From positions 1 through 64,000 of the forward strand of contig NZ_WVHP01000021.1 in the NCBI RefSeq assembly GCF_009834765.1: a stretch of DNA of 64,000 bases, given 5' to 3'. The notes beneath the pieces were generated by a model, which saw only the letters and a program-made list of their open reading frames with translations, was not told the DNA's origin and did no database searches. A program made the position numbers and the translations under genes. The DNA comes from Saccharibacter sp. EH611 (GTDB lineage Bacteria > Pseudomonadota > Alphaproteobacteria > Acetobacterales > Acetobacteraceae). Positions within the stretch are counted from its first letter, which is position 1. Each line of letters opens with the position of its first letter. Shown one piece after another: positions 1-48,975 of the stretch.

Positions 1-1449
1 CGACAACACCTATACGGGTGATACGAACATCAATCACGGGACGTTACAGCTTGGTGATGGTGGCACGACCGGCTCGATTGCGAGCAAGAACATCAACAAT
101 AACGGGACATTGTCGGTTAACCGTAGTGATGATGTGAAGCTTGATCAGCATATTTCTGGCACGGGCGGTCTGAACCAGGATGGTAGCGGCAAGACGACGC
201 TGACCAACGACAACACCTATACGGGTGATACGAACATCAATCACGGGACGTTACAGCTTGGTGATGGTGGCACGACCGGCTCGATTGCGAGCAAGAACAT
301 CAACAATAACGGGACATTGTCGGTTAACCGTAGTGATGATGTGAAGCTTGATCAGCATATTTCTGGCACGGGCGGTCTGAACCAGGATGGCACCGGCAAG
401 ACGACGCTGACCAACGATAACACCTATACGGGTGATACGAACATCAATCACGGGACGTTACAGCTTGGTGATGGTGGCACGACCGGCTCGATTGCGAGCA
501 AGAACATCAACAATAACGGGACATTGTCGGTTAACCGTAGTGATGATGTGAAGCTTGATCAGCATATTTCTGGCACGGGCGGTCTGAACCAGGATGGCAC
601 CGGCAAGACGACGCTGACCAACGATAACACCTATACGGGTGATACGAACATCAATCACGGGACGTTACAGCTTGGTGATGGTGGCACGACCGGTTCCATT
701 AAGAGCAAGAACATCAACAATAACGGAACGCTGACAGTTAACCGTAGCGATGATGTGAAGCTTGATCAGCATATTTCTGGCACGGGCGGTCTGAACCAGG
801 ATGGTAGCGGCAAGACGACGCTAACCAACGACAACACCTATACGGGTGATACGAACATCAATCACGGGACGTTACAGCTTGGTGATGGTGGTACGACCGG
901 CTCGATTGCGAGCAAGAACATCAACAATAACGGGACATTGTCGGTTAACCGTAGTGATGATGTGAAGCTTGATCAGCATATTTCTGGCACGGGCGGTCTG
1001 AACCAGGATGGTAGCGGCAAGACGACGCTGACCAACGACAACACCTATACGGGTGATACGAACATCAATCACGGGACGTTACAGCTTGGTGATGGTGGCA
1101 CGACCGGCTCGATTGCGAGCAAGAACATCAACAATAACGGGACATTGTCGGTTAACCGTAGTGATGATGTGAAGCTTGATCAGCATATTTCTGGCACGGG
1201 CGGTCTGAACCAGGATGGCACCGGCAAGACGACGCTAACCAACGACAACACCTATACGGGTGATACGAACATCAATCACGGGACGTTACAGCTTGGTGAT
1301 GGTGGTACGACCGGTTCCATTAAGAGCAAGAACATCAACAATAACGGGACATTGTCGGTTAACCGTAGTGATGATGTGAAGCTTGATCAGCATATCTCTG
1401 GCACGGGCGGTCTGAACCAGGATGGCACCGGCAAGACGACGCTGACCAA
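1..1449 (+). repeat. Seven tandem 207-bp coding repeats
   Basis: Copies begin at 1, 208, 415, 622, 829, 1036 and 1243, each 207 bp (69 codons). They differ at only a few positions. A diverged copy starts at 1450. Because 207 is a multiple of three, gain or loss of units keeps the reading frame. The array probably continues left of the window. Confidence 0.97.
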
Positions 1450-4400
1450 CGATAACAGCTATGCGGGCCCAACCAATGTGAATGCGGGAACCTTGCAGGT
1501 TGATGGGAATCAGAGTGGATCGCATGGTCTGACTTCCGTTGCTTCTGGTGCAACGCTGGCAGGAAATGGCACGATTGGTGGTGATGTTGCTGTGCATAAT
1601 GGTGGCACCCTCTCTCCCGGAGGGAGCTTAGATAGCGCAGGGAAGATGACGATTAATGGCGGGCTTTCGTTTGATCCAAATGCTCGGCAAGATTGGAATA
1701 TGGGCCAGGCCAGTAAGGAAGGCGGTCAATATAACGACTTCGTGAATGTTAAGGGTAACTTGCAGCTCGGTGGGACGATTAATATTTCCACAGCACGCGG
1801 CGGGCCAGACGTTCAAGACAACTCTCTAGGGGGCGGTGTTTATCGCATGTATTCCTACGGGGGTAAGCTTTCCGGTCAGGATAATCTGAACGGAGTAATG
1901 TCTAATGGTGTTCTTGATCCTCATTTAGGAATTCAGACATCAATTGATAAACAAGTGAACCTGATTTCCTCTCATGGTGGTGAGCTGAGCTTCTGGGATG
2001 GCAGCGATGTCGCACAGCATGGTGCTAATAACCGTGACGGGAATAGTTCCGTTGATGGCGGCGATGGTGTCTGGACGGCGATCAATGGGAGCGGGGATTA
2101 TAACTGGACGAACGCTAATGGATCGCGCAATGCACCGTGGGCATCAGGATCTATGGCCATTTTCCAAGGGAAAGCTGGTCATGTTACGGTAAAAGATCAG
2201 AATGTCAGAGGCCAAAATGCCCCTGTAATGCTCAGTGGTATGCAGTTTGCGAACCTTGATAATAAAAGTTACCTGATTTCAGGGGATGCGCTTCATGCGG
2301 CAACCGCAAACACGATTATTCGTGTTGGTGATGGCACGTCTGAAGGAACCGGTATCACAGCAGAAGTTGCTTCTGTTATTGATGATGGATCCGTTGCTGG
2401 TGGGACAGCATTAACAAAAACGGATTCCGGCACGTTAATCCTATCAGGTGATAACCAGTATCATGGCGATACCCGTATCAATGGTGGGACGTTACAGCTT
2501 GGTAATGGCGGCACAACAGGGTCGGTTGCCAGCAAGAACATCCTTGATAATGGTGATCTTGTGATTAACCACAGTAATGATGTGGCCTTAGCCCAGAAGA
2601 TTTCTGGCACGGGGATGTTCCATCAGATTGGTACGGGCAAAACGACGCTGCTCAATGACAACAGTTATACGGGCGATACAACGATTGATCATGGGACGTT
2701 ACAGCTCGGTAATGGTGGCACGACTGGGTCGATTGCGGGTCAGGCCATTGTTAACAACGGCGCTCTTGCGGTTAATCACAGCAATGACCTGACGTTAGGC
2801 CAGAGGATTTCTGGCTCTGGTGACTTCCATCAGGTTGGCACGGGCACAACGACGCTCACCAATGACAATACGTATCAAGGCGATACGACGATTGACCATG
2901 GCACGTTACAACTGGGGAATGGTGGCACGACCGGGTCGATTGCTAGCAAGAATATTCTCAATAATAGTGCTCTTGCGGTTAATCACAGCAATGACCTGAC
3001 GTTAGGCCAGAGGATTTCTGGTACAGGGTCGTTCCATCAGGTTGGCACAGGCAAAACAGTGTTGACCAATGACAATAGCTATACGGGCGATACAACGATT
3101 GATCACGGCACGCTGCAATTAGGCAATGGCGGGAAGACAGGATCGTTCGCTAGCAAGAAGATCGTCAATAATGGTGTGTTTGCAGTCAATCGTAGCAATG
3201 ACGTCGCGCTCAATCAGTTGATCTCTGGCACAGGGGCGTTCCATCAGGTTGGCACTGGTCAGACGACCTTAACCAATGACAATACGTATCAAGGCGATAC
3301 GACCATTGAGCATGGTGCTCTTCAGTTGGGCGACGGCGGTAGCACAGGGTCAATTGCCGGGCAACATATCGTCAATAATGGCACGCTTGCGGTTAATCAC
3401 AGCAATGATGTGACGGTAGGTCAGCAGGTTTCTGGCTCAGGTGACTTCCATCAGGCAGGTACTGGCAAAACAACTCTGACGAACGACAATAGCTATCAAG
3501 GAACGACCTTTGTTGATCAAGGGGCCTTGCAGTTTGGTGATGGCGGCACAACGGGTTCTGTCCAGTCAGGTGCGATTGTCAATAATGGTGTTCTTGCGGT
3601 TAATCGTAGCAATGATGCTGTCTTTGGCCAGAATATCTCAGGCACGGGTGCCTTCAGTCAGGATGGCACGGGCACGACGGTCTTAACCAACGATAACCAT
3701 TATCAGGGCGATACCACGATCAATCATGGCACGCTCCAGCTTGGTAATGGTGGGGAAACAGGATCTATTGCGAGCCAGAATATCGTCAATAACGGCACGC
3801 TTGCGGTCAATCATAGCAATGATGTGACGTTGGGGCAGCAGATTTCTGGCACGGGTGCTTTCCATCAAGATGGAACGGGCCGCACCATTCTGACCAACGA
3901 CAACACCTATACGGGTGATACCACGATTAATCATGGCACGCTCCAGCTTGGTAATGGTGGAGAAGCGGGCTCTGTTGCGAGTAAGAACATTATCAACAAT
4001 GGGGTGTTGTCTGTTAACCGCAGTGATGACGTGACATTAGGCCAGCAGATTTCTGGCTCTGGTGCCTTTCATCAAGATGGCCCGGGTATGACGATGATGG
4101 TGGCCGACAATACGTATAAAGGAGATACGACAGTTAATGGTGGGGTGTTGCAGCTCGGTGATGGAGGGACGACCGGAGCGGTTGAAAGTAAGAAAATCGT
4201 TAATAATGGTCAGCTGATTATTAATCATAGCGATAATGTGCAGTTTGACCATGTGATTTCAGGAAGTGGGGACTTTATTCAAGCAGGGTCGGGTCGGACG
4301 ATCCTGAAGGCGGATAATACTTACACGGGGGATACGATCGTCGAACCGGGATCATCATTAGAGATTGGGAATGGCGCGACGAATGGGTCTATCAGTGCGA

Positions 4401-6532
4401 GTAACTTAATTAATGACGGAACGCTCTATATCAATCGCAGTGATAGCGTGTTGATGGCTCAAACGATCTCAGGATCGGGAAATATCATTGCGAATGGTCA
4501 GGGCCACATGACCATGATGACGGAGAATAACACTTATACCGGTGACTTCCACTTGATGAGTGGGACGATTGTTGGGTCTCCACGTAGTTTTGGCACAGGT
4601 GCGGTTATTGATGATGCTATGCTCATTATGAACAAACCGGGTGTCATGAAAGATGAGCTACGTGGAACGGGGACTTTTGTTGCTGGAGGTGATGGTGTTC
4701 TGCATCTTCCAAGCAATCGTGATGATTCCCACTTTACCGGTCAGGTCTTGGTTCAGAAAGGCACAATGAAAGTTGATGGTAACTTCCAAAATGCCAAAAT
4801 GGATGTCACACAAGGGGCAACTCTTTCCGGAGGAGGTTCTGTCGGGCAGACCCACGTTGGCCAAGGGGGGACTTTGGCAGCAACGGTGGTGGATAAAAAG
4901 GACGATGTTCAGCTCGCGCAGCAGGCGGCACCATCTTTGATGCTGAGAAGTCTTTTTGTTGAGGAAGATGCAGCCCCTGTCGCACCTGTTGTGCAGAGTG
5001 CTCCGCAGGAAGAAAGTAGCCCTGTAGGGGTTCTGTCGGTGCATGGTGATCTAGGGATGGATCATGATTCTCATCTTGTGGCCCAAGGAACGACGACGGC
5101 AACAGGCCAAACGATGGAGGTCAATGGACGGTCATATCAACAATTGCAAAGCAGTCTGATCAAGGTAATTGGCACGGCGGCACTCAAGGGGGGGACAGTT
5201 GATTTCAATGTTCCTGAAGGAACGAAGATCTCAGCGCGTCAGGGCTATACTCTGCTGACAGCTAGCAAGGGCGTCACGGGACATTATGATGGGCTCAATA
5301 CGAACCTTTTGGGCACGTCTGCCTTCTTGTCGCCGCAGCTCGCTTATGCTGCTGATGATGTGGACGTGATCATGAAAAACAATGGCACGAGCTTTGCGAG
5401 CATCGCACAAACAGCACAACAGGCGATGATCGGCAATGCCTTGCAGCATATGCCAGAAAACAGCCAGCTTGTGCAGGAAATGGAGGCTCTCAATGCGGCT
5501 GATGCCCGCCATGCGATGAAGTCTTTATCCGGTGAGGTTCATGCTTCTGCACGGACGGCCTTGATCCAAGACAGCTATTATGCGCGTCAGGCTGTTCTTG
5601 ACCGCCTTGATAGTGCTGATTGCGATGGCAGCCCAACGAGTGGTGGCATGGGTGTGGCTGACCTGAAGACGGGTCGCAAAGTGAATGCTTGCTTGTCGAA
5701 CCGTCCAGTTCTTTGGGGCCAGTCTTATGGAAGTCTGGGTAATAATGGTGGTAATGGCGGAGCAAGCGCTATGCACCATTCCACCACAGGTTTCGTGATG
5801 GGGGCTGATGCACCAGTATTTGCAACGTGGCGTGTTGGTGGTTTGGTCAGCTATGGGCGTTCAATGTTCAACCTGAAAGGGGATTCGAATTCCTCTGGCC
5901 ATAGCAATAACATTACGATTGGTGGTTATGCGGGTAATCATTGGGGCAACCTCCATCTCCGTCTAGGCGCAGCTTATACGTGGAACATTATGAATACCCG
6001 TCGTTCTGTCGCGGTTGGGGCTTATAATGGTCGTATGACGAGCGGCTATCTCGGGGGAACAGCGCAAGCTTTTGCTGAGCTTGGTTATAAATTCCACATG
6101 CGTCATGCGGTGATTGAGCCTTTCGCCAATGTGGCCTACGTTAATCTCCATATGAATGGTTATCATGAGCACGGGGGTGATGCGGCATTGCGTGGTCATG
6201 GGATGGATACAGGCGTCACATTCTCTACCTTCGGTATGCGTGCTTCAACCTCCTTTATGGTGGGGAAAACAGTGATTACGCCACAGGCCATGTTTGCTTA
6301 TCGTCATAGCTTTGGTCTGAGGACACCATCGGCACGTGCGATGTTTGCAGGAGCGAGTGCTGGCTCTATCGAGACGGTTGGTGCGCCATTGTCGAGTAAT
6401 TCCGCTGTGTTGAAACTGGGGATGACGGCGAAATTAACGAACCGTATTGACGTGGGTGTGTCTTACATCGGTCAGTATGGAACACACTCCGTGGATAGTG
6501 GGGCAGAAGGACATGTGCGTTTGGCCTTCTAA
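2..6532 (+). CDS. Autotransporter adhesin with tandem passenger repeats (5' end outside window)
   Basis: The frame is open to the left edge, so the N-terminus and signal peptide are not visible; 2176 residues remain. The passenger begins with seven near-identical 69-residue units (bases 1-1449). A unique segment follows (about 1450-2430). A second block of about eleven diverged copies of the same unit runs to about 4530. The units carry motifs such as NTYTGDT, GTLQLGDGG and ISGTG, typical of the PATR/autotransporter-associated beta-strand repeat, which builds a beta-helix. The last ~290 residues look like an outer-membrane autotransporter beta-barrel (alternating aromatic and glycine-rich strands) and end in phenylalanine, as these barrels do. 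The expected role is a surface adhesin exported through its own barrel (type V secretion). Ligand and cleavage are unknown. A strong hairpin follows the stop codon. Confidence 0.88.
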   Translation, partial: DNTYTGDTNINHGTLQLGDGGTTGSIASKNINNNGTLSVNRSDDVKLDQHISGTGGLNQDGSGKTTLTNDNTYTGDTNINHGTLQLGDGGTTGSIASKNINNNGTLSVNRSDDVKLDQHISGTGGLNQDGTGKTTLTNDNTYTGDTNINHGTLQLGDGGTTGSIASKNINNNGTLSVNRSDDVKLDQHISGTGGLNQDGTGKTTLTNDNTYTGDTNINHGTLQLGDGGTTGSIKSKNINNNGTLTVNRSDDVKLDQHISGTGGLNQDGSGKTTLTNDNTYTGDTNINHGTLQLGDGGTTGSIASKNINNNGTLSVNRSDDVKLDQHISGTGGLNQDGSGKTTLTNDNTYTGDTNINHGTLQLGDGGTTGSIASKNINNNGTLSVNRSDDVKLDQHISGTGGLNQDGTGKTTLTNDNTYTGDTNINHGTLQLGDGGTTGSIKSKNINNNGTLSVNRSDDVKLDQHISGTGGLNQDGTGKTTLTNDNSYAGPTNVNAGTLQVDGNQSGSHGLTSVASGATLAGNGTIGGDVAVHNGGTLSPGGSLDSAGKMTINGGLSFDPNARQDWNMGQASKEGGQYNDFVNVKGNLQLGGTINISTARGGPDVQDNSLGGGVYRMYSYGGKLSGQDNLNGVMSNGVLDPHLGIQTSIDKQVNLISSHGGELSFWDGSDVAQHGANNRDGNSSVDGGDGVWTAINGSGDYNWTNANGSRNAPWASGSMAIFQGKAGHVTVKDQNVRGQNAPVMLSGMQFANLDNKSYLISGDALHAATANTIIRVGDGTSEGTGITAEVASVIDDGSVAGGTALTKTDSGTLILSGDNQYHGDTRINGGTLQLGNGGTTGSVASKNILDNGDLVINHSNDVALAQKISGTGMFHQIGTGKTTLLNDNSYTGDTTIDHGTLQLGNGGTTGSIAGQAIVNNGALAVNHSNDLTLGQRISGSGDFHQVGTGTTTLTNDNTYQGDTTIDHGTLQLGNGGTTGSIASKNILNNSALAVNHSNDLTLGQRISGTGSFHQVGTGKTVLTNDNSYTGDTTIDHGTLQLGNGGKTGSFASKKIVNNGVFAVNRSNDVALNQLISGTGAFHQVGTGQTTLTNDNTYQGDTTIEHGALQLGDGGSTGSIAGQHIVNNGTLAVNHSNDVTVGQQVSGSGDFHQAGTGKTTLTNDNSYQGTTFVDQGALQFGDGGTTGSVQSGAIVNNGVLAVNRSNDAVFGQNISGTGAFSQDGTGTTVLTNDNHYQGDTTINHGTLQLGNGGETGSIASQNIVNNGTLAVNHSNDVTLGQQISGTGAFHQDGTGRTILTNDNTYTGDTTINHGTLQLGNGGEAGSVASKNIINNGVLSVNRSDDVTLGQQISGSGAFHQDGPGMTMMVADNTYKGDTTVNGGVLQLGDGGTTGAVESKKIVNNGQLIINHSDNVQFDHVISGSGDFIQAGSGRTILKADNTYTGDTIVEPGSSLEIGNGATNGSISASNLINDGTLYINRSDSVLMAQTISGSGNIIANGQGHMTMMTENNTYTGDFHLMSGTIVGSPRSFGTGAVIDDAMLIMNKPGVMKDELRGTGTFVAGGDGVLHLPSNRDDSHFTGQVLVQKGTMKVDGNFQNAKMDVTQGATLSGGGSVGQTHVGQGGTLAATVVDKKDDVQLAQQAAPSLMLRSLFVEEDAAPVAPVVQSAPQEESSPVGVLSVHGDLGMDHDSHLVAQGTTTATGQTMEVNGRSYQQLQSSLIKVIGTAALKGGTVDFNVPEGTKISARQGYTLLTASKGVTGHYDGLNTNLLGTSAFLSPQLAYAADDVDVIMKNNGTSFASIAQTAQQAMIGNALQHMPENSQLVQEMEALNAADARHAMKSLSGEVHASARTALIQDSYYARQAVLDRLDSADCDGSPTSGGMGVADLKTGRKVNACLSNRPVLWGQSYGSLGNNGGNGGASAMHHSTTGFVMGADAPVFATWRVGGLVSYGRSMFNLKGDSNSSGHSNNITIGGYAGNHWGNLHLRLGAAYTWNIMNTRRSVAVGAYNGRMTSGYLGGTAQAFAELGYKFHMRHAVIEPFANVAYVNLHMNGYHEHGGDAALRGHGMDTGVTFSTFGMRASTSFMVGKTVITPQAMFAYRHSFGLRTPSARAMFAGASAGSIETVGAPLSSNSAVLKLGMTAKLTNRIDVGVSYIGQYGTHSVDSGAEGHVRLAF
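2440..4530 (+). repeat. Degenerate block of about eleven copies of the same ~69-residue unit
   Basis: In translation, the D-N-x-Y-x-G-D / GTLQLG / NNG / VNHSNDV / ISGTG pattern recurs about every 68-69 residues. There are many substitutions between copies, in contrast to the near-identical array upstream. This suggests an older, diversified block of the same passenger repeat. Confidence 0.85.
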
Positions 6533-12470: not shown

Positions 12471-13451
12471 ATGTCACTATCGATTAATACAAACGTCAAC
12501 TCAATGATCGCTCTGGAAAACCTGAGCAGCACGCAGAGCCAGCTGTCCCAGACCCAGAATGCGATTTCTACCGGTAAGAAGGTTTCTACCGCTTCTGACA
12601 ACCCAGCTTCTTACGGCATTGCTTCTCAGATCAACAACGACATTTCCGGTCAGAACACCGTGAATGACGGTCTGAGCTATGCTTCACGCATTAACACGAC
12701 AGCAAGCTCTGCTCTTTCCAGCATTGGCTCTGTTCTGGATAACCTGCGTGGTTCCGTGACCAGCTTGGGTCAGCACGTTGGTGACCCTGCTTCTCTGGCA
12801 CGTCTCAATGACACTATCACGGGTCAGATTAACCAGATCAACACGATTGCTCGTAACTCCACACTTCAGGGTGTGAATCTGCTGACCGCTGGTACGGGCG
12901 ATGGTCTAGGTATTACCACAAACAACCTGAGCTTCGTGACGGGTCTGCGTGGTGAAACACAGACGACTTCTGGTTTTGCAAGCACTTTCCAGGCTGAAAC
13001 TGGTGCGACTGGTCAGGCTGGATCTTTGAGCGATCTTCTTGGTCTGTCTACAGGTACAGTAACGGGTGGTGATGCGACAGGGAACGTCTTTGTGACGGGT
13101 TCTGGTAGCGCCATCGCACTTGCGACAGCAGGCTCACAGGTTTCCGCTTCTGGCATCAATCAAGGCACGAAGACGCTCGCTAGCTTGATTGACATCGTGA
13201 GCAAGGCGAAGTCTGCAGTCTTGAATGTTTCTGGTAAGCTGGGTGCAAATCAGCAGACCATCGACACGATGAGCTCCTTTGGTCAGGTCACATCTGACTC
13301 TCTGACAGCTGCTGGCGGTGCGCTGACAGATGCTGACATGGCTTCTGAGAGTGCAAAACAGACATCTCTGCAGACGAAGCAGTCCTTGGGCATTAAGTCT
13401 CTGTCCATTTCCAACAGCCAGTCTCAGAACATTCTGCAGCTCTTCCAATAA
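12471..13451 (+). CDS. fliC: Flagellin
   Basis: The protein has 326 residues. The ATG at 12471 is chosen because the protein then begins MSLSINTNVNSM, as flagellins do, and GGAGA lies 8 bases upstream. The N-terminal D0/D1 helices (~1-140: SSTQSQLSQTQNAISTGKKV, ASYGIASQI) and C-terminal helices (~265-326, ending SQNILQLFQ) flank a short Ser/Thr/Gly-rich central domain. The surface is a plausible glycosylation target, given the glycosyltransferase immediately downstream. Only one flagellin is present here. A strong terminator follows. Confidence 0.95.
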   Translation: MSLSINTNVNSMIALENLSSTQSQLSQTQNAISTGKKVSTASDNPASYGIASQINNDISGQNTVNDGLSYASRINTTASSALSSIGSVLDNLRGSVTSLGQHVGDPASLARLNDTITGQINQINTIARNSTLQGVNLLTAGTGDGLGITTNNLSFVTGLRGETQTTSGFASTFQAETGATGQAGSLSDLLGLSTGTVTGGDATGNVFVTGSGSAIALATAGSQVSASGINQGTKTLASLIDIVSKAKSAVLNVSGKLGANQQTIDTMSSFGQVTSDSLTAAGGALTDADMASESAKQTSLQTKQSLGIKSLSISNSQSQNILQLFQ

Positions 13452-13490
13452 GAGTGATTTTTCTCAGCTTTGGCTGAGTGAGAGTGGAGG

Positions 13491-13524
13491 AAACGCCACC
13501 ACAGAAATGTGGTGGCGTTTTTTT
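13491..13524 (+). terminator. Rho-independent terminator after flagellin
   Basis: A perfect 13-bp stem (13491-13503 with 13508-13520) has a GAAA loop and runs into a T tract ending at 13524. It ends the highly expressed flagellin transcript and isolates it from the glycosyltransferase. Confidence 0.95.
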
Positions 13525-13595
13525 ATGAATTTATGACATCATGATAACGCTTAAAGTAGCGTGATGTGTAACGTATATGTGAGGGAGTAATAAGC

Positions 13596-15020
13596 GTGTC
13601 GGATGATGAGAAGACGCCACTATTTCATAAGTTGGAAGCAGCGATTGGGCATCATCGCAATGGACGCACTCATCAGGCAATGGCTTTGTATAAAGAGGTC
13701 ATAACGCTCGATTCACGCAATGTCATTGCTCTTAATAATTACGGCGCCCTACTTCTAAAAGAAAATGACTTAAATGGTGCTCTGACTGTTCTGCGGCAGG
13801 CTGTTGAGATTGATCCTCAAGCCTATGATGCATGGAGTAATCTTGGGGATGCCTGCCAGCTTTTGCAGGATTATCTTGCAGCGATTAATTGTTATCAAAA
13901 AGCGCTAACAATCAAACCAACTCATGCGCCTGCTTTGGGAAACTTGGCATCAGCCCTGAAACCAATCGGAGAGTTCACGCTAGCGGAGCGTTTCCATAAG
14001 GCGGCTTTAGAGGTGGACCCGACGCATGTGGAAACACATACGAATTATGCGCTCTTCCTCCTTGCGACAGGCCGCTACAAGGAAGGATTTCGTGAATATG
14101 AATGGCATTGGAGAGAATGCGCAAAACGTGTGGGGAGAGCGGCTATCCAATGGGATGGCACGCCTCTTAATGGCAGGACGTTGCTTGTGTATTTCGTTGG
14201 AGGATTTGGTGATGCTGTGCAGTTTAGCCGTTTTTTGCCGCAACTTGAGAAACAGAATGGGCAAATTATCGTTGCGACACGCAAGCCCTTATTAGCGCTT
14301 TTGCGTTATTCATTCCCGACGATAACATTTGTGGACGATGCAGAAACACTTCCTCTTCATGATGTCCAGACGCCGATTATGAGCCTTGCGCATTTTACGG
14401 GCGTAACGCTGGAAACGCTTCCGTTTTCAGAAGGCTTTTTGAAAGTGCAGCCTGAGAAAATGGCCGAGTGGAGAGAGCGTTTACAGCATGATCAAGGGTC
14501 GACAGCCGCTTCAGCACCATTGCGTGTTGGTTTAGTGTGGGCGGGAGCGCCTCATAAACATATAAAATTTATTGAGTTTGCGAATAGACGGCGTTCTCTT
14601 GACCTGAAGACGTTGGCTCCGTTAGCAGAAGCAGTACCAGAGGCGATTTTTTACAGTTTACAAATTGGTGACAAGAAAGAGCAGGCCGCGCATCCGCCAG
14701 CCCCTATGACGTTGATTGATTATACAGACCATATTCATGATTTCTCAGATACAGCTGCATTAATCACTCAGCTGGATGTCGTGGTAGCTGTGGATACTTC
14801 CACAGCACACGTAGCGGCCGGACTTGGCAAGCCTGTTATGATGCTGTCACGTTTTGATCAATGCTGGCGTTGGCTGGCAAAGCGTTCTGATTCACCATGG
14901 TATGATAGCTTGACGATCTATCAGCAAAAGCGCCCGCTTGATTGGTCTGAAGCGTTTGAAGATGCCAAGCGTGACCTAAGAGCCATGCAGGACGCAAAAG
15001 AAAAAGCACACGGTGTCTGA
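13596..15020 (+). CDS. TPR-containing glycosyltransferase, probable flagellin glycosylation
   Basis: The protein has 474 residues and a GTG start with GAGGGAG 8 bases upstream. Residues ~10-165 hold about four tetratricopeptide repeats (e.g. AWSNLGDACQLLQDYLAAINCYQKAL). The remainder is a GT-B-like C-terminal domain related to GT9/GT41-type TPR transferases, with GLVWAG near residue 312 and a donor-site motif AVDTSTAHVAAGLGKPV near 397. Placement right behind the flagellin gene suggests transfer of sugars to flagellin Ser/Thr, but donor and acceptor cannot be read from sequence. A paralogue with the same architecture lies at 32.2 kb. Confidence 0.8.
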   Translation: MSDDEKTPLFHKLEAAIGHHRNGRTHQAMALYKEVITLDSRNVIALNNYGALLLKENDLNGALTVLRQAVEIDPQAYDAWSNLGDACQLLQDYLAAINCYQKALTIKPTHAPALGNLASALKPIGEFTLAERFHKAALEVDPTHVETHTNYALFLLATGRYKEGFREYEWHWRECAKRVGRAAIQWDGTPLNGRTLLVYFVGGFGDAVQFSRFLPQLEKQNGQIIVATRKPLLALLRYSFPTITFVDDAETLPLHDVQTPIMSLAHFTGVTLETLPFSEGFLKVQPEKMAEWRERLQHDQGSTAASAPLRVGLVWAGAPHKHIKFIEFANRRRSLDLKTLAPLAEAVPEAIFYSLQIGDKKEQAAHPPAPMTLIDYTDHIHDFSDTAALITQLDVVVAVDTSTAHVAAGLGKPVMMLSRFDQCWRWLAKRSDSPWYDSLTIYQQKRPLDWSEAFEDAKRDLRAMQDAKEKAHGV

Positions 15021-15165: not shown

Positions 15166-16254
15166 TCACATATAATCAGCGAGAGTCATGCCCTTCGTTT
15201 TTGCGATGAGTGAGTAGGAGGCTTTAAGGCGGGTGCTCAGGTCGGAGGCCTGCGTCGCCACAACGGCCATGTCAGCATCTACATTTGTTGACAGTTGCGT
15301 CTGTAGCGATGTTTGGACAGACGTGAAGGTCTTTTGCTGACTTTTAATGTTGTTTTGTTCCACACCAATAGAGGTGTTCATGTCGATCAAGCGATTAGAG
15401 CTATCGGTAAAAGAAGCTTGGAGTTTTTTAGCCAGCTCCGTGAACCCCGGTGTCGTAGAGCTCATTCCCTGCATAGAAGAGACGATCATCATATCACGCA
15501 TCATATCGCGGATTGGAGACCCAGTGGAGGTATCAGATGCCTGACCACCTTCCGTCGCAACAACGCCATTGGAGGAGGTTGAGGCACTCGTTGGCCCTGT
15601 CACGACTTGTCGGCGCATTGTTGTGGCCTTCTCAGCAGATGTCGAGATTGATGGCGAGAAGACTGACATGGAGGAGGAGTTATCTGCTGCTGCCGCTGTG
15701 GCCTGTTTAAAAATATCATCAACATTGTTGCCAGAGAGGCCGGAGACAATCTTAGAAATGGACTTCGCTAACGGTGAATCTGACAGTTGATTGGGGGAGG
15801 GGACAGTTGGTTCATTTTCTGCTGTACCGGAGAAGATGTAGCCCATTCCGTCAGATGTATTGAGGATGTTCCCGATTGTGCTTAGGGAAGAGCGTGCATT
15901 TGAAATAGTAGCATCAAGCGGCTGTGCTTTAGAGCCTAAGGTCGATTCTATCCCAAGCATTTGAGAGGAGAAGCTTTGGGCAATATTGGTCACTTGCTCA
16001 ATGGCCTTTGAGCTGATCGAAAGACGGTTCTGCACAGAACTCATATTTGTTTGGTAGTCCGCAAGCTGTGCGATTTTGGGGCTAAGAGCAAGGGTTGCCC
16101 CCCGGTTATCACCCAAGCCCGCGATGCTGCTCGAGATTGTCCCTTGGGTGGCTTGCCAAGAGTTAAGCTGCTGTTGGTCGCGGATTTGCTGAATCCCATC
16201 AGAAAGGATTTGGCTCATTCCACTTGCGCCATACTGGCCAACTGAGAGACTCAT
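15166..16254 (-). CDS. flgL: Hook-filament junction protein FlgL
   Basis: The protein has 362 residues with a flagellin-like N-terminal domain (~1-140, including LADYQTNMSSVQNRLSIS) and a C-terminal helical domain ending LKASYSLIAKTKGMTLADYM. The variable middle is rich in Ser and Thr. FlgL forms the second junction ring between hook and filament. It follows flgK on the same strand after 23 bases, the usual flgK-flgL pairing. Confidence 0.88.
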   Translation of the reverse strand: MSLSVGQYGASGMSQILSDGIQQIRDQQQLNSWQATQGTISSSIAGLGDNRGATLALSPKIAQLADYQTNMSSVQNRLSISSKAIEQVTNIAQSFSSQMLGIESTLGSKAQPLDATISNARSSLSTIGNILNTSDGMGYIFSGTAENEPTVPSPNQLSDSPLAKSISKIVSGLSGNNVDDIFKQATAAAADNSSSMSVFSPSISTSAEKATTMRRQVVTGPTSASTSSNGVVATEGGQASDTSTGSPIRDMMRDMMIVSSMQGMSSTTPGFTELAKKLQASFTDSSNRLIDMNTSIGVEQNNIKSQQKTFTSVQTSLQTQLSTNVDADMAVVATQASDLSTRLKASYSLIAKTKGMTLADYM

Positions 16255-32195: not shown

Positions 32196-33803
32196 GTGTG
32201 TCGGTTGGACATTGATGTATTGAAAAAGGCTCTGTGGAATGATCTCACCCCAGAAAATCTGACAGAAGCGGGTAACTTTTTATACTCTCATGACAGAGAG
32301 GCGGATGCACTGGATATTATCCGGCAGGTGAGCTGCGAAACGACGGATGTTATTCTGTTGTTGGCTGCCTATGGCGTTTTGGTGCAACATACCGCTCATC
32401 ATCATCTCATGATGACGATCTTGCGTAAGGCGCTTCTCGTTCTGCCAGAGGTCAATGACGAGCATTTAACGTCCGTTCGTTACGATATTATGCTACATTT
32501 GGCAGACCAGCTCATGGCGCTGGGTCATTATGATGAAAGCATGGGTCTTTATGCGGACGTTTTGAAAGCCTCACCTAAGCAAAATCGCCTTGCTGTTGGG
32601 GAGCATCTCTCTGCCTGCTTACTAGAGGCTGGTCGCACCGAAGAGGCCAAGACGGTTTTAGAGAGCTGGTTGGCGGAGGGCCCTGTGTCTGTCCCGCTTT
32701 ATAATAACATGGGGTGTGCTCTTGAGCGGCTTAATCGCTCGGAAGAAGCGATCGCTTATTACCGTAAGGGTGTTGATCTTGCGCCATCGCATGAGCTCAT
32801 CTCGTTTGGTTTTGGGATTTGTTTGCTGAAAGCTGGCCATTTTGAGGAAGGATTCCAACGTTACGCGCTCCGTAGCCCGTTTGTGATCAATCCTTCTTGT
32901 TGGTATGTGAAAGACCTCTACCGTTTGGCCCCGGATGTGGCGTTGGAAGGGAAGCACATCCTCTTTTATCAAGAGCAAGGCTTAGGTGATACGATCCAGT
33001 TCATTCGCTTCCTCCCACAGATCTTAGCGCGAGGTGCGCGCGTTACGCTTGCGGTTCCTCTTCAGCTGCTAAGGTTGCTCAGGCAGAGCTTCCCCGAGGT
33101 GGACGTTCGATTAAGTAATGAGGTAGAGGCAGAACCGCAAACACAGAGCCAGTATCATTATGGCTGCCCGATTGCTGATCTCCCCTATATCTGTGGGATG
33201 AAGGCGGAAGCGGATATTCCTCCCTTCGCACCGTATATGACCGTGCCAGAGCAGGACGCAGCCCTTTTTGCGCGACATGTGTCGGAGCGTTTGGAAAAAG
33301 AGGGCAGACCGACAAATGGGAAGCGGCGTTTAAGAGTGGGGCTTGTGTGGGCTGGAGGAAAGCGTTTCCTCGCACGTGATGTCGCGTCTGATCGTCGTCG
33401 TTCAACGAACCTTCAGGAGATGATGGGCGCTCTGGCCCCTGCGGAGGTAGACTTCTTTTCTCTGCAATATGGGGACCCTCGACAAGAGCTTACGGAGGGA
33501 ACGCCGCAGCCTGTGTATGACCTGATGGATCAAGTTACTGATATGGCTGATTGTGCGGCATTGATGAAAACACTTGATCTCGTGATTTCGGTTGATACAG
33601 CGCCATTACATCTCGCTGGTGCGTTAGGTATCCCGGTATGGTTGGCTAATCGGTGGGATTCCTGCTGGCGCTGGGGCGATGAGGGGACACAGTCTGCATG
33701 GTATCCGACCCTACGTATCTTTCGGGCTCATGAAAGTTCTTTTGTGCCGGTTCTTAATGAGATTGGTGAGGCACTACGGTCTCTCGTTGCGTCTTCGTCC
33801 TGA
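32196..33803 (+). CDS. TPR-containing glycosyltransferase (second paralogue)
   Basis: The protein has 535 residues. Start uncertain: GTG 32196, or TTG 32205, which has AAGGGG 8 bases upstream. The N-terminal half (~30-230) consists of TPR-like helices (e.g. LYNNMGCALERLNRSEEAIAYYRKG). The C-terminal half is the same GT-B-like transferase domain as in the gene after flagellin: GLVWAGGKRF near 380, LVISVDTAPLHLAGALGIPVWLANRWDSCWRW near 465-495. It probably modifies a flagellar protein or a surface glycan. It lies between flhA (divergent) and the lytic transglycosylase (convergent). Confidence 0.78.
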   Translation: MCRLDIDVLKKALWNDLTPENLTEAGNFLYSHDREADALDIIRQVSCETTDVILLLAAYGVLVQHTAHHHLMMTILRKALLVLPEVNDEHLTSVRYDIMLHLADQLMALGHYDESMGLYADVLKASPKQNRLAVGEHLSACLLEAGRTEEAKTVLESWLAEGPVSVPLYNNMGCALERLNRSEEAIAYYRKGVDLAPSHELISFGFGICLLKAGHFEEGFQRYALRSPFVINPSCWYVKDLYRLAPDVALEGKHILFYQEQGLGDTIQFIRFLPQILARGARVTLAVPLQLLRLLRQSFPEVDVRLSNEVEAEPQTQSQYHYGCPIADLPYICGMKAEADIPPFAPYMTVPEQDAALFARHVSERLEKEGRPTNGKRRLRVGLVWAGGKRFLARDVASDRRRSTNLQEMMGALAPAEVDFFSLQYGDPRQELTEGTPQPVYDLMDQVTDMADCAALMKTLDLVISVDTAPLHLAGALGIPVWLANRWDSCWRWGDEGTQSAWYPTLRIFRAHESSFVPVLNEIGEALRSLVASSS

Positions 33804-37147: not shown

Positions 37148-37612
37148 TTACCACGAAGCTCCAGTAACGTGTTTGGGCTGGTTAGCACCGGGATCAGCGC
37201 TGGGGGCCCAAGCTGTCCAGTCCCATGAGGCGGTATTTTGCCGGTTTTCAGTCGCCATCTCAATGGGGGAGAGAATGGTGCGCATGAAACGACGGTTGAG
37301 CTTCGGTGTATGGATGAGCCTCTGATACGAGCTTTCATTGCCCATATAGACGCAGGTGCAGCTAATAGGATCGGCAAAGAGGTAAATCTTTCCCCCATCA
37401 GGGATAGGCCGAAAGGTAAGTCGTGAAGGGGGGAGTTGGTTAAGCATCGTATAGCGTGCCGTTGTATCGGCTGCATGGGCGATGAACCCCGCGCGAGCGA
37501 GCTCTTGCCCATTGTCAAAATAGGTCTCTGCAGGAGATGTGCAGCTCGCGAGTGTGGCAGCGCCTAGGCTACCGATAGCTGCCCAAAAAGACCGGACGCG
37601 TGGAGCGTTCAT
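37148..37612 (-). CDS. Hypothetical lipoprotein
   Basis: The protein has 154 residues with a lipoprotein signal (TLASC, lipidated Cys near residue 24). The mature part contains YLFADPISCTCVYMGNE with a Cys-x-Cys pair. I do not recognise the family. Its ATG overlaps the stop of the upstream GT25 gene by 4 bases, so the two are coupled. It is convergent with the flgN-like gene. Confidence 0.72.
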   Translation of the reverse strand: MNAPRVRSFWAAIGSLGAATLASCTSPAETYFDNGQELARAGFIAHAADTTARYTMLNQLPPSRLTFRPIPDGGKIYLFADPISCTCVYMGNESSYQRLIHTPKLNRRFMRTILSPIEMATENRQNTASWDWTAWAPSADPGANQPKHVTGASW

Positions 37613-38349
37613 GAAGACGCTCCAGAGGCTAGGTTGAGGCTACGTGCTTGGACGTTATCTGTCAGTACGAGAGGTGGCATGCAGGTATAGGCTTTAAGGT
37701 CAGCATAATGTTGGTTCATGAGATGATCCACGCTGCTTGCCTGGAGGACTTTGCCCCCCATGCTCGGATAGGTCACGAGCGGTGAGGTAAAAGGCAGGCA
37801 CCGTTTAATCAGCTCTACGGCTCCTTTGGGAGAGACTGAGTAGCCACAAATGCCAAAGGTTTGGCGAAGGCGGAAGGGCAGGGTGGCCACGTCCATATGA
37901 CGGAATGTCTCAATAGCGCGGCGTACTTTTTCTTCTGAAAAACGCGCAACGCAATCTGTAATGCCGGGCAAAAGGTCGTAATGTAGGATGGTGTCGGAGT
38001 TATTGCCCCATAAAATGATGTCCCAATCATCTGGAAGGGAGCGGATAACGCGATCGCTTTCTTCCTCAAAATTATGGCAGAGGAAGGCATCATCTTCAAA
38101 AATATGAGAGGGATTACCGTATTTAGCCGTAGCGCCCCATAGTGAAACATGGGTCATGCCTGAACCAATAGCGCCTTTGGTGAACTGGCAATGATGATCC
38201 ACAAAACCTTGCTCGGCAGCTTGGGTGAGGTCTAACGTTGACCCATCAATGCCAGGAGCATGCAGAATGTCGGGTACATGCGCATTCACCCGGCGGAAGC
38301 GTTCGAGACGTTCTGGTGTACGCGCTAGGCTAATCACATATTTCTGCAT
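37609..38349 (-). CDS. Glycosyltransferase family 25 protein
   Basis: The protein has 246 residues from the ATG at 38349, preferred because MQKYVISLARTPERLERFRR is the family start and GGGA lies 6 bases upstream. It has the GT25 pattern: an early ISLxRxxxRxxxF, a GAIGSGMTHVSLWG segment near residue 65, an acidic EDDA near 85, and WDIILWG near 110. GT25 enzymes act in LPS/LOS and sometimes protein glycosylation. It is co-transcribed with a small lipoprotein and is an unrelated insert between flagellar operons, or a part of a flagellar glycan pathway. Confidence 0.83.
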   Translation of the reverse strand: MQKYVISLARTPERLERFRRVNAHVPDILHAPGIDGSTLDLTQAAEQGFVDHHCQFTKGAIGSGMTHVSLWGATAKYGNPSHIFEDDAFLCHNFEEESDRVIRSLPDDWDIILWGNNSDTILHYDLLPGITDCVARFSEEKVRRAIETFRHMDVATLPFRLRQTFGICGYSVSPKGAVELIKRCLPFTSPLVTYPSMGGKVLQASSVDHLMNQHYADLKAYTCMPPLVLTDNVQARSLNLASGASS

Positions 38350-38542
38350 TGGCATTCCCGCACTGACTTTTGCAAGCAACGTTGCAATGTTTTTGTTACT
38401 ACTTGTAGTGTACTATGTGTCTCTAGCGATGTTCAATGGCTAAGGTTATTCTTCCCATGATGTGTGTCGATGTGGGAGTGCTTTAAACGGTGGCCATGCA
38501 TCATGATAGTCGGCATGTGTCGTTACGTATTGGAGCAATGAT

Positions 38543-41643: not shown

Positions 41644-42417
41644 ATGGAACAGACAGTCAATACGCCTCCGGGCAAGATACTCCTTGCTACTCCATGCTTT
41701 GGCGGTATGGTCACGACGGAGTATATGCTTTCCGTTATTGGATATGCGTCAGGTGGGCAAAGTATTCCCATGACGATTATGCATATTGGCGATGATGCGA
41801 TGATCACGCGTGCACGGAATACATTGCTCGCGAATTTTTTCTTTAAATCAGATTGCACGCATATTCTTTTTGTTGATGCTGATATCGGTTTTCATGCGGA
41901 TGCCCCAACTCGGCTCTTTGAATCAGGTAAGGACGTAGTCGGGGGGCTTTACCCGTTGCGTGACCGTTTTTGGGACGCCAAAACTAAAGAGAACATCCTT
42001 GCTGGGGAACGTCAGCAAACAGCGTCTTTGCGCTATGTGGGTGAAACAGCCCAGATGCACACGAGCCTAGAAAAGGGCCCGCTTGTAGAAAGTAACTATG
42101 CGGGAACCGGCTTTCTTATGGTGAGCCGGAAGGCTGTGGAACGCATGATCAAAGCGTATCCGGAAACGGAGTATAAGCGTATTGATGCGCCCAATGATGG
42201 CAGTGGTATTCGGAGTTTTGCCCTGTTTGATGGGAGTATCGACCCTGAAACAGGCACGTATTTAAGCGAGGACTACACGTTCTGTAAGCGTTGGCGCGAT
42301 ATAGGGGGTGAGGTCTGGCTGGATACCTCGCTCGAGTTGACCCATGCGGGGCGTGCGTCCTTTACGGGGATGCCTTCGGTTCGTCTTGGCATTGCTCATA
42401 ACCGCCTGAAGACTTAA
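41644..42417 (+). CDS. GT-A-type glycosyltransferase-like protein
   Basis: The protein has 257 residues. A Rossmann-like start (KILLATPCFGGMVTTEYM), a DxD metal-binding motif in LFVDADIGF (Asp 78 and 80), and later SEDYTFCKRW and ELTHAG resemble GT2-like or Anp1-like glycosyltransferases. It contains no membrane segment. It lies between fliJ and motB with its own 180-base upstream gap. A role in modifying flagellin or surface glycans is inferred from the other glycan genes nearby. Confidence 0.68.
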   Translation: MEQTVNTPPGKILLATPCFGGMVTTEYMLSVIGYASGGQSIPMTIMHIGDDAMITRARNTLLANFFFKSDCTHILFVDADIGFHADAPTRLFESGKDVVGGLYPLRDRFWDAKTKENILAGERQQTASLRYVGETAQMHTSLEKGPLVESNYAGTGFLMVSRKAVERMIKAYPETEYKRIDAPNDGSGIRSFALFDGSIDPETGTYLSEDYTFCKRWRDIGGEVWLDTSLELTHAGRASFTGMPSVRLGIAHNRLKT

Positions 42418-47299: not shown

Positions 47300-47686
47300 A
47301 TGTATCAGAATGATGGGATGAGGGCGTACCGGAATACGGTGAGTGCGGCTTTGTCCGACCGAGAGGCCGATGCTATGTGCTTCCGTAAGCTCATTACGGA
47401 ATTAAAATTGGCAGAACATACGGATGATATCTTGGTACGCAACGAAGCTATTTCCAAGAATCAGCGTCTTTGGTCGCTTATTCAAAAAGCAAATGCTGTC
47501 GATTTGTCTGTTGTGGACAATGAGGATCGGCTTCTATTTTTACGGATGGCAGATGCAGCTCAGAAATACGGGATTAAAGCGCTTCTTTATCCTGAACGGC
47601 CGATTGGCCCTTTGATTGAGATTGCGCAGAATGTTTTAGATGGATTGACGCAGACGATAACCGACGAGGGAGCCGGAACTCCCTAA
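47300..47686 (+). CDS. flaF: Flagellin regulator and chaperone FlaF
   Basis: The protein has 128 residues with the FlaF pattern: an aromatic N-terminus (MRAYRN), EADAMCFRKLITELKLAE and the signature NEAISKNQRLWSLIQKA. FlaF with FlbT controls flagellin synthesis and secretion in alphaproteobacteria. No flbT is seen in this window, and the flagellin gene is 34 kb away. It is the last gene of a fliK-flgD-flaF group. Confidence 0.85.
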   Translation: MYQNDGMRAYRNTVSAALSDREADAMCFRKLITELKLAEHTDDILVRNEAISKNQRLWSLIQKANAVDLSVVDNEDRLLFLRMADAAQKYGIKALLYPERPIGPLIEIAQNVLDGLTQTITDEGAGTP

Positions 47687-47716: not shown

Positions 47717-47754
47717 AAAGTCCGCTTCCTTTTTTGAAGGAGCGGGCTTTTTTT
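47717..47754. terminator. Bidirectional terminator between flaF and glf
   Basis: An about 10-bp stem (AGTCCGCTTC with GAGCGGGCT, including two G-T pairs) is flanked by AAAA on the left and a 7-T tract on the right. It can stop both the plus flaF transcript and the minus glf transcript, whose stop codon lies in it. Confidence 0.75.
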
Positions 47755-48913
47755 ATGCGCTGTGAGGATCTGTAAAAAAGGACGGGATCGGAGAAGAGTG
47801 TGCCAGTTTTTGGTCAATTACGGTGCACGCTGACAGCGCTTCTGCGATGGTGCGATCCATATCAAGATAACGATAGGTTCCTAGCCGTCCGAGAAAAGAT
47901 ACACCTTCTGTTGTTTCTGCTTGGTTCAGATAGCGTTCCAGGCGTGACATTTCTGTTGTCAGGCGGATAGGATAGTAAGGCGCGTCTTCTGGGGTAGCTA
48001 GGCGACTATATTCGCGGAAGCATGTCGTTTTCTTGAGGTGAGCTGCTTCCCATGGGGCGAAATGCTTATGCTCTGAAATACGCGTATAGGGCACGTCTTC
48101 ATCACAGTAATTCATGACGGCCGTTCCCTGGTAATCTCCATCTGCATCGAAACGCTCAAAATCTAATGTGCGGTAGCCAAGGCGGCCATGACAATACTTG
48201 AAATACCGATCAATCGGGCCGGTATAAAAGATATGATCATAAGATTCTGCAGCCGTGAGAGCCTCAAATGCTGTATTGAGGTGGAGATGAATATTCGGAT
48301 GATCAAGAATATTCTCAATAAGGGTCGTATATCCCTCTTCAGGAATTCCCTGGTAGGGATGATTGAAGTAATTATCATCATAGTTAAAACGAACAGGTAA
48401 GCGCTTGAGAATAGAGGCAGGCAACGACGTTGGGTCTACGCCCCATTGTTTGAGTGTATAGCCGCGGAAAAAGGCTTGGTAGAGTTCCGGGCCAATCATG
48501 GAAAGAGCTTGTTCCTCAAAGTTTTGAGGGTTTTTGATGGATGAATCAGATTTTTCTTTAAGAAATTCTTGGGCTTCATCAGGTCTTAATGTTTTCCCAA
48601 AGAACTGATTAATCGTGAAGAGGTTGATGGGCAGAGAATATACACGCCCACCAGAAATGGCTTTGACGCGGTTAATATAAGGCTGAAAAGTAGCGAATTT
48701 CTGCACATATTCCCATACATGTTGATGGGCTGTGTGAAAAATATGAGGCCCATAGTGATGAAGCATCACATGTGTATCGGGGTCGCGCGATGTATGGCAA
48801 TTCCCACCAATATGGGAGCGTTCTTCAGCAAGGGTGACGGTATGGCCTTGCTGTGCAAGATGCCGAGCAATGACGGCTCCACTAAAACCCGCGCCGACAA
48901 TACAAAATTTCAT
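47753..48913 (-). CDS. glf: UDP-galactopyranose mutase
   Basis: The protein has 386 residues from ATG 48913 (MKFCIVGAGFSGAVIA), preferred over a TTG 18 bases upstream. It has an N-terminal FAD-binding GxGxxG motif, HHYGPHIFHT near residue 58, and TLKQWGVDP near 163, characteristic of Glf. The enzyme converts UDP-galactopyranose to UDP-galactofuranose, used in surface glycans. It is an isolated gene in the flagellar cluster, with no galactofuranosyltransferase certain nearby. Confidence 0.94.
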   Translation of the reverse strand: MKFCIVGAGFSGAVIARHLAQQGHTVTLAEERSHIGGNCHTSRDPDTHVMLHHYGPHIFHTAHQHVWEYVQKFATFQPYINRVKAISGGRVYSLPINLFTINQFFGKTLRPDEAQEFLKEKSDSSIKNPQNFEEQALSMIGPELYQAFFRGYTLKQWGVDPTSLPASILKRLPVRFNYDDNYFNHPYQGIPEEGYTTLIENILDHPNIHLHLNTAFEALTAAESYDHIFYTGPIDRYFKYCHGRLGYRTLDFERFDADGDYQGTAVMNYCDEDVPYTRISEHKHFAPWEAAHLKKTTCFREYSRLATPEDAPYYPIRLTTEMSRLERYLNQAETTEGVSFLGRLGTYRYLDMDRTIAEALSACTVIDQKLAHSSPIPSFFTDPHSA

Positions 48914-48975
48914 AACGCCCCAAAGCTTCAATCATAAATGGAGAGAAGGCTATTCTCCTCTTTAAAGGAGGAAAC

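Follow-up and report, generated by a model that had tools for sequence, protein, structure and literature searches.

What does a gene for a TPR glycosyltransferase do directly behind the flagellin gene of an acetic acid bacterium, and which protein and which sugar would its product use? The question is raised by a stretch of 64,000 nucleotides, hereafter the window, covering positions 1 to 64,000 of the forward strand of contig NZ_WVHP01000021.1 in the 2.28 Mb assembly of Saccharibacter sp. EH611 (genome G000). The window holds a large flagellar and chemotaxis cluster, and an Rfam scan of it returned nothing at gathering scores; a DNA search with a stretch of locus L138 gave no match either. 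The gene, GT1 (13596..15020, plus strand), opens with a GTG start in the window's list of open reading frames (ORF) and encodes a TPR-GT9-like glycosyltransferase of 474 residues, as identified from that list, Pfam and an AlphaFold2 model. An initial annotation had read its position as a sign of dedicated flagellin O-glycosylation. The reading that we favour, with a probability of about 0.55, is that GT1 is a cytoplasmic O-glycosyltransferase acting on flagellin and/or the hook-filament junction protein FlgL with a nucleotide-diphosphate donor. Searches of open-licence PubMed Central brought up no publication about flagellar glycosyltransferases of the TPR-GT9 kind, nor any about glycosylated flagellin in Acetobacteraceae, which agrees with the earlier remark that such a system is little studied in acetic acid bacteria.

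The flagellin gene (12471..13451, plus strand) starts with ATG and encodes 326 residues carrying the Pfam domains Flagellin_N and Flagellin_C; with one Flagellin_N match in the whole assembly it is the sole copy, and its product is the probable acceptor. GT1 does lie behind it, as the initial annotation had it, across a gap of 144 bases, with the refinements that a terminator stands between the two genes and that flgL lies on the other side. The putative intrinsic terminator of the flagellin gene (13487..13524, plus strand) consists of a hairpin and a T run, with a folding energy of -27 kcal/mol and a z of -8.2; it is unlisted in a consensus scan that gave four terminator-like sites (3.8 expected) and eight promoter-like sites (4.5 expected, sd 2.3). 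Hairpins are also predicted in the flagellin-GT1 gap of the sister species G150 (z -6.3), of Aristophania vespae (G136, z -6.1) and of G061 (z -5.0). Given the terminator, flagellin and GT1 would not form one simple transcript, and GT1 is probably expressed from its own promoter or by read-through transcription. Upstream of the GT1 start, positions 13535-13595 contain an imperfect inverted repeat (ACATCA...TGATGT), similar in G150, which could be a regulator site. On the far side of GT1, and convergent with it, flgL (15166..16254, minus strand) encodes a flagellin homologue that is the second candidate acceptor. This gene was identified by NCBIfam, flgK adjacency and synteny: its product matches NF006489 and TIGR02550, both under the curated cut-off, and no Pfam family at E 0.001, and it adjoins flgK, as do plasmid orthologues annotated as 'flagellin'.

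The TPR plus GT-B layout initially described is borne out by Pfam and by the structural model. Helices of residues 3-157 (13602..14066, plus strand), seen as helix pairs in the model, make up the TPR part, presumably the acceptor-binding arm; Pfam locates TPRs at residues about 20-163, and this part is the protein's strongest match. The GT-B catalytic part, delimited by the domain model and of GT9-type fold, spans residues about 194-474 (14175..15017, plus strand). Within it, the Pfam family Glyco_transf_9 (PF01075) matches residues 383-416 marginally, at 22.5 bits against a cut-off of 22; the A. vespae orthologue scores 23.5 bits, and the family is not reported by Pfam for the orthologue in G085 at E 0.001. 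The NCBIfam family hepto_Aah_TibC (TIGR04414; BAHT, TibC-like) is unmatched by GT1 at E 0.001 and matches only a second TPR-GT9-like protein of the window, GT2, weakly (E 0.065, 12.2 bits against 200). AlphaFold2 modelled full-length GT1 confidently (pLDDT 87.4) and its catalytic domain as a well-formed GT-B (pLDDT 85.2).

The layout had been likened to that of OGT-type enzymes with a GT9-like catalytic part, and the two halves of this comparison fared differently. OGT and SPINDLY (GT41), which carry a TPR superhelix before the GT-B domain as GT1 does, rank first in a fold search with the full-length model, with the TPRs as the common part, so that the likeness to OGT resides mostly there. The GT9-like assignment, borderline in Pfam, is clear from the predicted fold of the catalytic domain: every one of the top eight entries is a GT9 or TibC heptosyltransferase (Z 15.9-18.9), followed by three chloroplast NDH-PSI chains (14.8-15.8), and the next entry has a Z of 11.3. 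Matches comprise the Veillonella GT9 enzyme 3tov (Z 18.9, rmsd 3.2, 255 residues), WaaF (1psw; Z 17.7, rmsd 3.5, 251 residues), the protein heptosyltransferase TibC (4rap; Z 17.0, rmsd 3.2, 246 residues) and WaaC (6dfe; Z 16.1, rmsd 3.8, 237 residues). OGT reaches only Z 9.3-9.8 with the same domain, and by this fold rank OGT-type catalysis is the less likely. The GT9 structures share the catalytic fold and the GD and DTxxxH motifs with GT1 at 9-14% identity; WaaC and WaaF differ from it in having a lipid acceptor and no TPR part.

A PDB sequence search with a profile of the Acetobacteraceae proteins returned WaaC as the sole match (E 0.03), and the profile alignment sets Asp400-His405 of GT1, the putative GT9 donor-site motif DTSTAH (14793..14810, plus strand), on WaaC VDTGLSHL. 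In the structural alignment residue 29 of the model pairs with WaaC residue 1, which, if the first strand is ungapped, places Asp206 (codon 14211..14213, plus strand), the proposed catalytic base, on WaaC Asp13. In WaaC, Asp13 and Asp261 are catalytic by mutagenesis, with 4688- and 2027-fold losses, according to an excerpt of PMC5713226. GT1 has counterparts of both residues, Asp206 and Asp400, the pairing of Asp13 being deduced from the range ends. Between G000 and G150 the dN/dS of GT1 is 0.073 at dS 0.48, and purifying selection acts on the gene. These observations bear on the idea that GT1 has no catalytic activity and serves flagellin as a TPR scaffold or chaperone. Secretion systems often employ TPR chaperones, T3SS-chaperone profiles match GT1 weakly and the TPR part dominates its profile matches, but the invariant Asp206, the intact DTxxxH, the low dN/dS over the gene and the well-formed GT-B model make such a role very improbable.

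The initial annotation missed the closest precedent for a flagellar TPR glycosyltransferase, as well as the cluster's further sugar genes. Caulobacter FlmG is a proven flagellin O-glycosyltransferase, both required and sufficient, whose TPR part binds flagellins, as stated in an excerpt of PMC7591256; our identification of the Caulobacter homologue as FlmG itself rests on place, layout and length. GT1 resembles it in joining an N-terminal TPR part to a C-terminal GT-B part, in lying in a flagellar or flagellin region of a host with FlaF (in the window the flagellin secretion chaperone gene flaF, 47300..47686, plus strand, PF07309 over cut-off) and in being homologous over its full length at about 25-27% identity. 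It differs in length, with 474 residues against 596, and FlmG-side proteins match nothing but TPRs in Pfam and lack the Asp and His of the GT9 motif DTxxxH. Best read, GT1 would work like FlmG from outside the FlmG clade.

This separation was examined with homologues taken from the loci gathered, which are a part of all TPR-GT matches; the FlmG-side sequences were collected around Caulobacter-type flagellin matches, of which the 80 best among 184 were used, and one of 109 distinct homologues was left out for exceeding 900 aa. A branch with 100/100 support in the catalytic-domain tree (midpoint root, some long branches) splits 47 Acetobacteraceae from 61 FlmG-side rows. Asp206 is invariant on both sides (47/47 and 61/61). 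Asp400 is found in 46 of the 47 Acetobacteraceae rows and His405 in all of them, with DTxxxH intact in 46, whereas both residues are missing, and the motif is intact in none, of the 61 FlmG-side rows; with one row per 70% identity cluster, Asp400 and His405 occur together in 40/41 against 0/30. Arg333 and Ser334 are likewise missing from all 61 FlmG-side rows and Arg425 is present in one of them, and position 332, a candidate site for the equivalent of WaaC K192, is basic in 59/61. Of 39 FlmG-side genomes, chosen so as to sample different parts of the tree, 38 have NeuB, against 0 of the 12 genomes tested in which a DTxxxH-type TPR-GT lies no more than 3 kb from flagellin or flgL (G000, G136, G061, G042, G085, G149, G009, G022, G025, G037, G048 and G079). 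Among all family genomes tested, a set that left out G099, G143, G117 and G150, NeuB is present in 2/25. Because of relatedness, the rows and genomes behind these motif and NeuB counts are not independent events. FlmG orthology of GT1 was rejected on clade, DTxxxH motif and NeuB absence. For all the shared architecture and full-length homology, there is hardly any chance that GT1 is an ordinary FlmG transferring pseudaminic acid, given that G000 has no NeuB match and that donor motif and clade are different.

The donor-site motif suggests that GT1-type enzymes take their sugar from a nucleotide diphosphate, and we infer that FlmG shed the diphosphate-donor part of the GT9 site on taking up a CMP-sugar. 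The donor of GT1 is perhaps ADP-heptose, the obvious candidate in view of the GT9 fold and the presence of an HldE-type gene. Such a gene was found in all ten genomes tested, over the cut-off in nine and at 344 bits against 345 in G000; only matches near or over the cut-off count, as all 14 control genomes matched, two of them over it. HldE is also present in the flagellin-less sister species G101 and therefore says nothing specific about the sugar. TibC, which shares the heptosyltransferase fold of GT1, glycosylates protein acceptors, the autotransporters, from ADP-heptose, and differs in being an iron-bound dodecamer, according to an excerpt of PMC4358343. Maf flagellin glycosyltransferases presumably do the same job as GT1 and belong to a different family; PF01973 (Maf) matched neither GT1 (E 0.001) nor any of 18 genomes, an absence weakly supported in that controls matched in four archaea only.

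Gene order across the family bears on the acceptor. Flagellin, GT1 and flgL follow one another in the window, in G150, in A. vespae (also of the Acetobacteraceae, so that acetic acid bacteria as hosts, as first suggested, are confirmed) and in G061; G042 has the order flgL-GT1, and in G085 and G149 the genes flgK-flgL-GT1-flgG lie on a single strand, with the flgL stop and the GT1 start overlapping as TGATG. The neighbour common to four genera is thus flgL, and two of the four have flagellin beside GT1 as well. A serious alternative, though one that we hold unlikely, is that GT1 modifies FlgL (or FlgK, or the hook) instead of flagellin, which would make GT1 a hook-filament junction glycosyltransferase. 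Apart from the adjacency of flgL in all seven genomes, the FlgL core is fairly rich in Ser/Thr (fractions of 0.23-0.40 in seven sequences, with no control set). FlgL is, however, a flagellin homologue, and the TPR arm might accommodate the two alike; GT1 has flagellin on its other side in four genomes; five further genera (G022, G025, G037, G048 and G079) have a separate TPR-GT clade at no more than 3 kb from flagellin; and FlmG itself binds flagellins. The relative in G009 is likewise within 3 kb of flagellin. We therefore keep both proteins as candidate acceptors in the favoured reading.

TPR-GT matches occur in 140 of 150 Acetobacteraceae genomes, so the wider family is common, with up to 18 per genome among the matches listed, most of them away from flagellins. 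Eleven of the 150 TPR-GT matches listed across the 150 genomes nevertheless lie within 5 kb of a listed flagellin, as counted by eye among the matches listed for each, against an expectation of 0.9-1.7 (P 3e-9 to 2e-6); flagellin proximity of TPR-GTs exceeds chance. Three species were compared within the genus. G000 and G150 have flagellin, GT1 and GT2, and G101, presumably non-motile, has no match to flagellin and no GT1, GT25 or GLF (two further sugar genes of the window, described below). The two TPR-GT matches of G101 group in the tree with other paralogues of the window genome (L003, L005), not with GT1 or GT2, so GT2 seems absent from G101 too. As GT1, GT2, GT25 and GLF belong to one cluster in G000, their joint absence may be a single event.

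The copies found elsewhere call for a different weighing. Near copies of GT1 in G060 (L038), in G132 (L042) and one of two in G042 (L037/L151) have no flagellar gene in the stretch around them when probed with the window proteins, and GT1 copies outside flagellar loci mean that the clade is not strictly flagellar. G117 (L046 2-691) has a 58% identical GT1 catalytic piece with DTxxxH at a contig edge, beside apparent housekeeping genes. This genome has no flagellin match, and the window's flagellar genes are unmatched in the 15 kb around the piece, which is either a copy without a flagellum or a leftover. These copies, G117, the A. pasteurianus and A. persici plasmid copies described below, the terminator and a Ser/Thr fraction of the flagellin core (0.297) that is not raised over the ends (0.272) count against the favoured reading. 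One could suppose instead that GT1 serves the envelope (LPS or exopolysaccharide) or glycosylates autotransporters, and sits in a flagellar cluster by chance. GT9 enzymes are classically LPS heptosyltransferases, genomes hold many paralogues, the GT1-type piece of G117 occurs without flagellin, and TibC, one of the nearest folds, acts on autotransporters. An autotransporter gene (110-6532, plus strand; 2140 aa with 17 PATR stretches and a beta-domain) in fact stands 7 kb upstream in the window, ahead of the flagellar cluster, with counterparts near the cluster in G150 and near a split GT1 copy of Acetobacter persici. We consider this improbable, somewhat more so than an acceptor confined to the hook-filament junction, since four genera, and plasmids that carry flagellin, show GT1 linked to flagellar genes, since it overlaps flgL in one genus and is missing from the flagellin-less G101, and since the window's autotransporter is unmatched in the other non-FlmG loci examined.

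Linkage to the flagellum extends to plasmids. The best five of 72,556 plasmid records are the same five for queries with GT1, flagellin, GT2 and g38 (a further putative sugar gene of the cluster), namely two of Aristophania vespae and one each of Komagataeibacter saccharivorans, Acetobacter pasteurianus and A. persici, and these three genera have no flagellin-matching plasmid record, out of five, that does not match the other three queries too. In the 53-kb A. vespae plasmid NZ_CP047653.1 (L176, L179), 26 of 55 annotated features bear flagellar names; GT1 lies behind flagellin, a GT2 orthologue (48%) lies between flhA and the SLT gene, with two family 2 glycosyltransferases coming after it, and fliJ and motB enclose a g38 orthologue (79%). 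With its large flagellar set and sugar genes this plasmid comes close to a portable flagellum, and flagellar clusters are found on plasmids in other acetic acid bacteria as well. The K. saccharivorans plasmid has a large flagellar set; on it GT1 lies behind chemotaxis genes and adjoins a GT25 gene with 63% identity to that of the window. The A. pasteurianus plasmid still has its GT2 orthologue (44%) between flhA and SLT, and its GT1 is some 230 kb away from flagellin, in the vicinity of thyX and a TnpB gene and about 8 kb from cheD. On the A. persici plasmid (L175 9073-10490) two ORFs make up the split GT1 homologue, one holding the TPR part and the other the GT9 part, and g38 is likewise in two pieces; an autotransporter gene with a beta-domain 47% identical to that of the window's autotransporter is found about 2.6 kb from this split GT1.

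Of the dedicated flagellin O-glycosylation first proposed, the flagellar setting stands, and 'dedicated', drawn from gene order alone, claims too much: in two other genera the orthologue lies by flgL, not flagellin, a conserved terminator splits GT1 off from flagellin, and the A. pasteurianus and K. saccharivorans plasmid copies are nearer chemotaxis genes. In the favoured reading, GT1 would be a soluble cytoplasmic enzyme whose TPR arm holds an export substrate, flagellin and/or FlgL, while the GT9-type domain passes a single sugar to Ser/Thr from a nucleotide-diphosphate donor. Transfer would precede the FlaF and type III export step and, unlike in Caulobacter FlmG, would use no CMP-nonulosonate. 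GT2 and g38 might modify other sites or extend the glycan, joined in some genera by GT25 together with UDP-galactopyranose mutase.

The analysis suggests that a TPR-plus-GT design serves flagella without a nonulosonate synthase and with the GT9 donor site intact, and it raises the testable question of what sets the donor in TPR-type protein glycosyltransferases, for which the contrast at positions 333, 334, 400, 405 and 425 is a prediction on donor choice. A bolder proposal, which we put forward as speculative and rather doubtful as a whole, is that a pair of TPR-GT9 enzymes in the cytoplasm of acetic acid bacteria O-heptosylates flagellin and FlgL, or glycosylates them from another NDP-sugar, as a nonulosonate-free system that moves together with the flagellum, on plasmids too, and that FlmG is the branch of this superfamily that lost the GT9 diphosphate-donor motif with CMP-pseudaminic acid. 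Should GT1 prove to put a common NDP-sugar on a flagellin, an enzyme this small would also lend itself to glycosylating proteins in the cytoplasm of laboratory E. coli.

The remaining sugar genes are scattered through the window's cluster. GT2 (32196..33803, plus strand) lies between flhA and an SLT-domain gene, the place that it also holds on the A. vespae and A. pasteurianus plasmids. Between fliJ and motB, g38 (41644..42417, plus strand) encodes 257 residues with no Pfam family over cut-off; its FVDADIGF, a DxD-like element, makes it look like a GT-A-type sugar transferase. At the same place it is 79% identical in A. vespae and 66% in K. saccharivorans, and its counterparts are 58-79% identical on flagellin-bearing Acetobacteraceae plasmids and about 42-44% on Rhizobium replicons. 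A family 25 glycosyltransferase gene (GT25; 37609..38379, minus strand; PF01755) would be an optional extender, and UDP-galactopyranose mutase (GLF; 47753..48931, minus strand; TIGR00031 over cut-off), which faces flaF inside the flagellar cluster, a possible sugar supply. Both seem optional, as A. vespae and G061 have GT1 and no GLF or GT25 match. The two genes are adjacent in G042, at 65-67% identity to those of the window, where the GT25 homologue (C1:461850-462593, L158) reads through one TGA and may be broken. In G149, GT25 is directly behind a flagellin, and two flagellin matches of equal length, both 44.969% identical to that of the window, flank GT25-type genes (L150 7621-13534).
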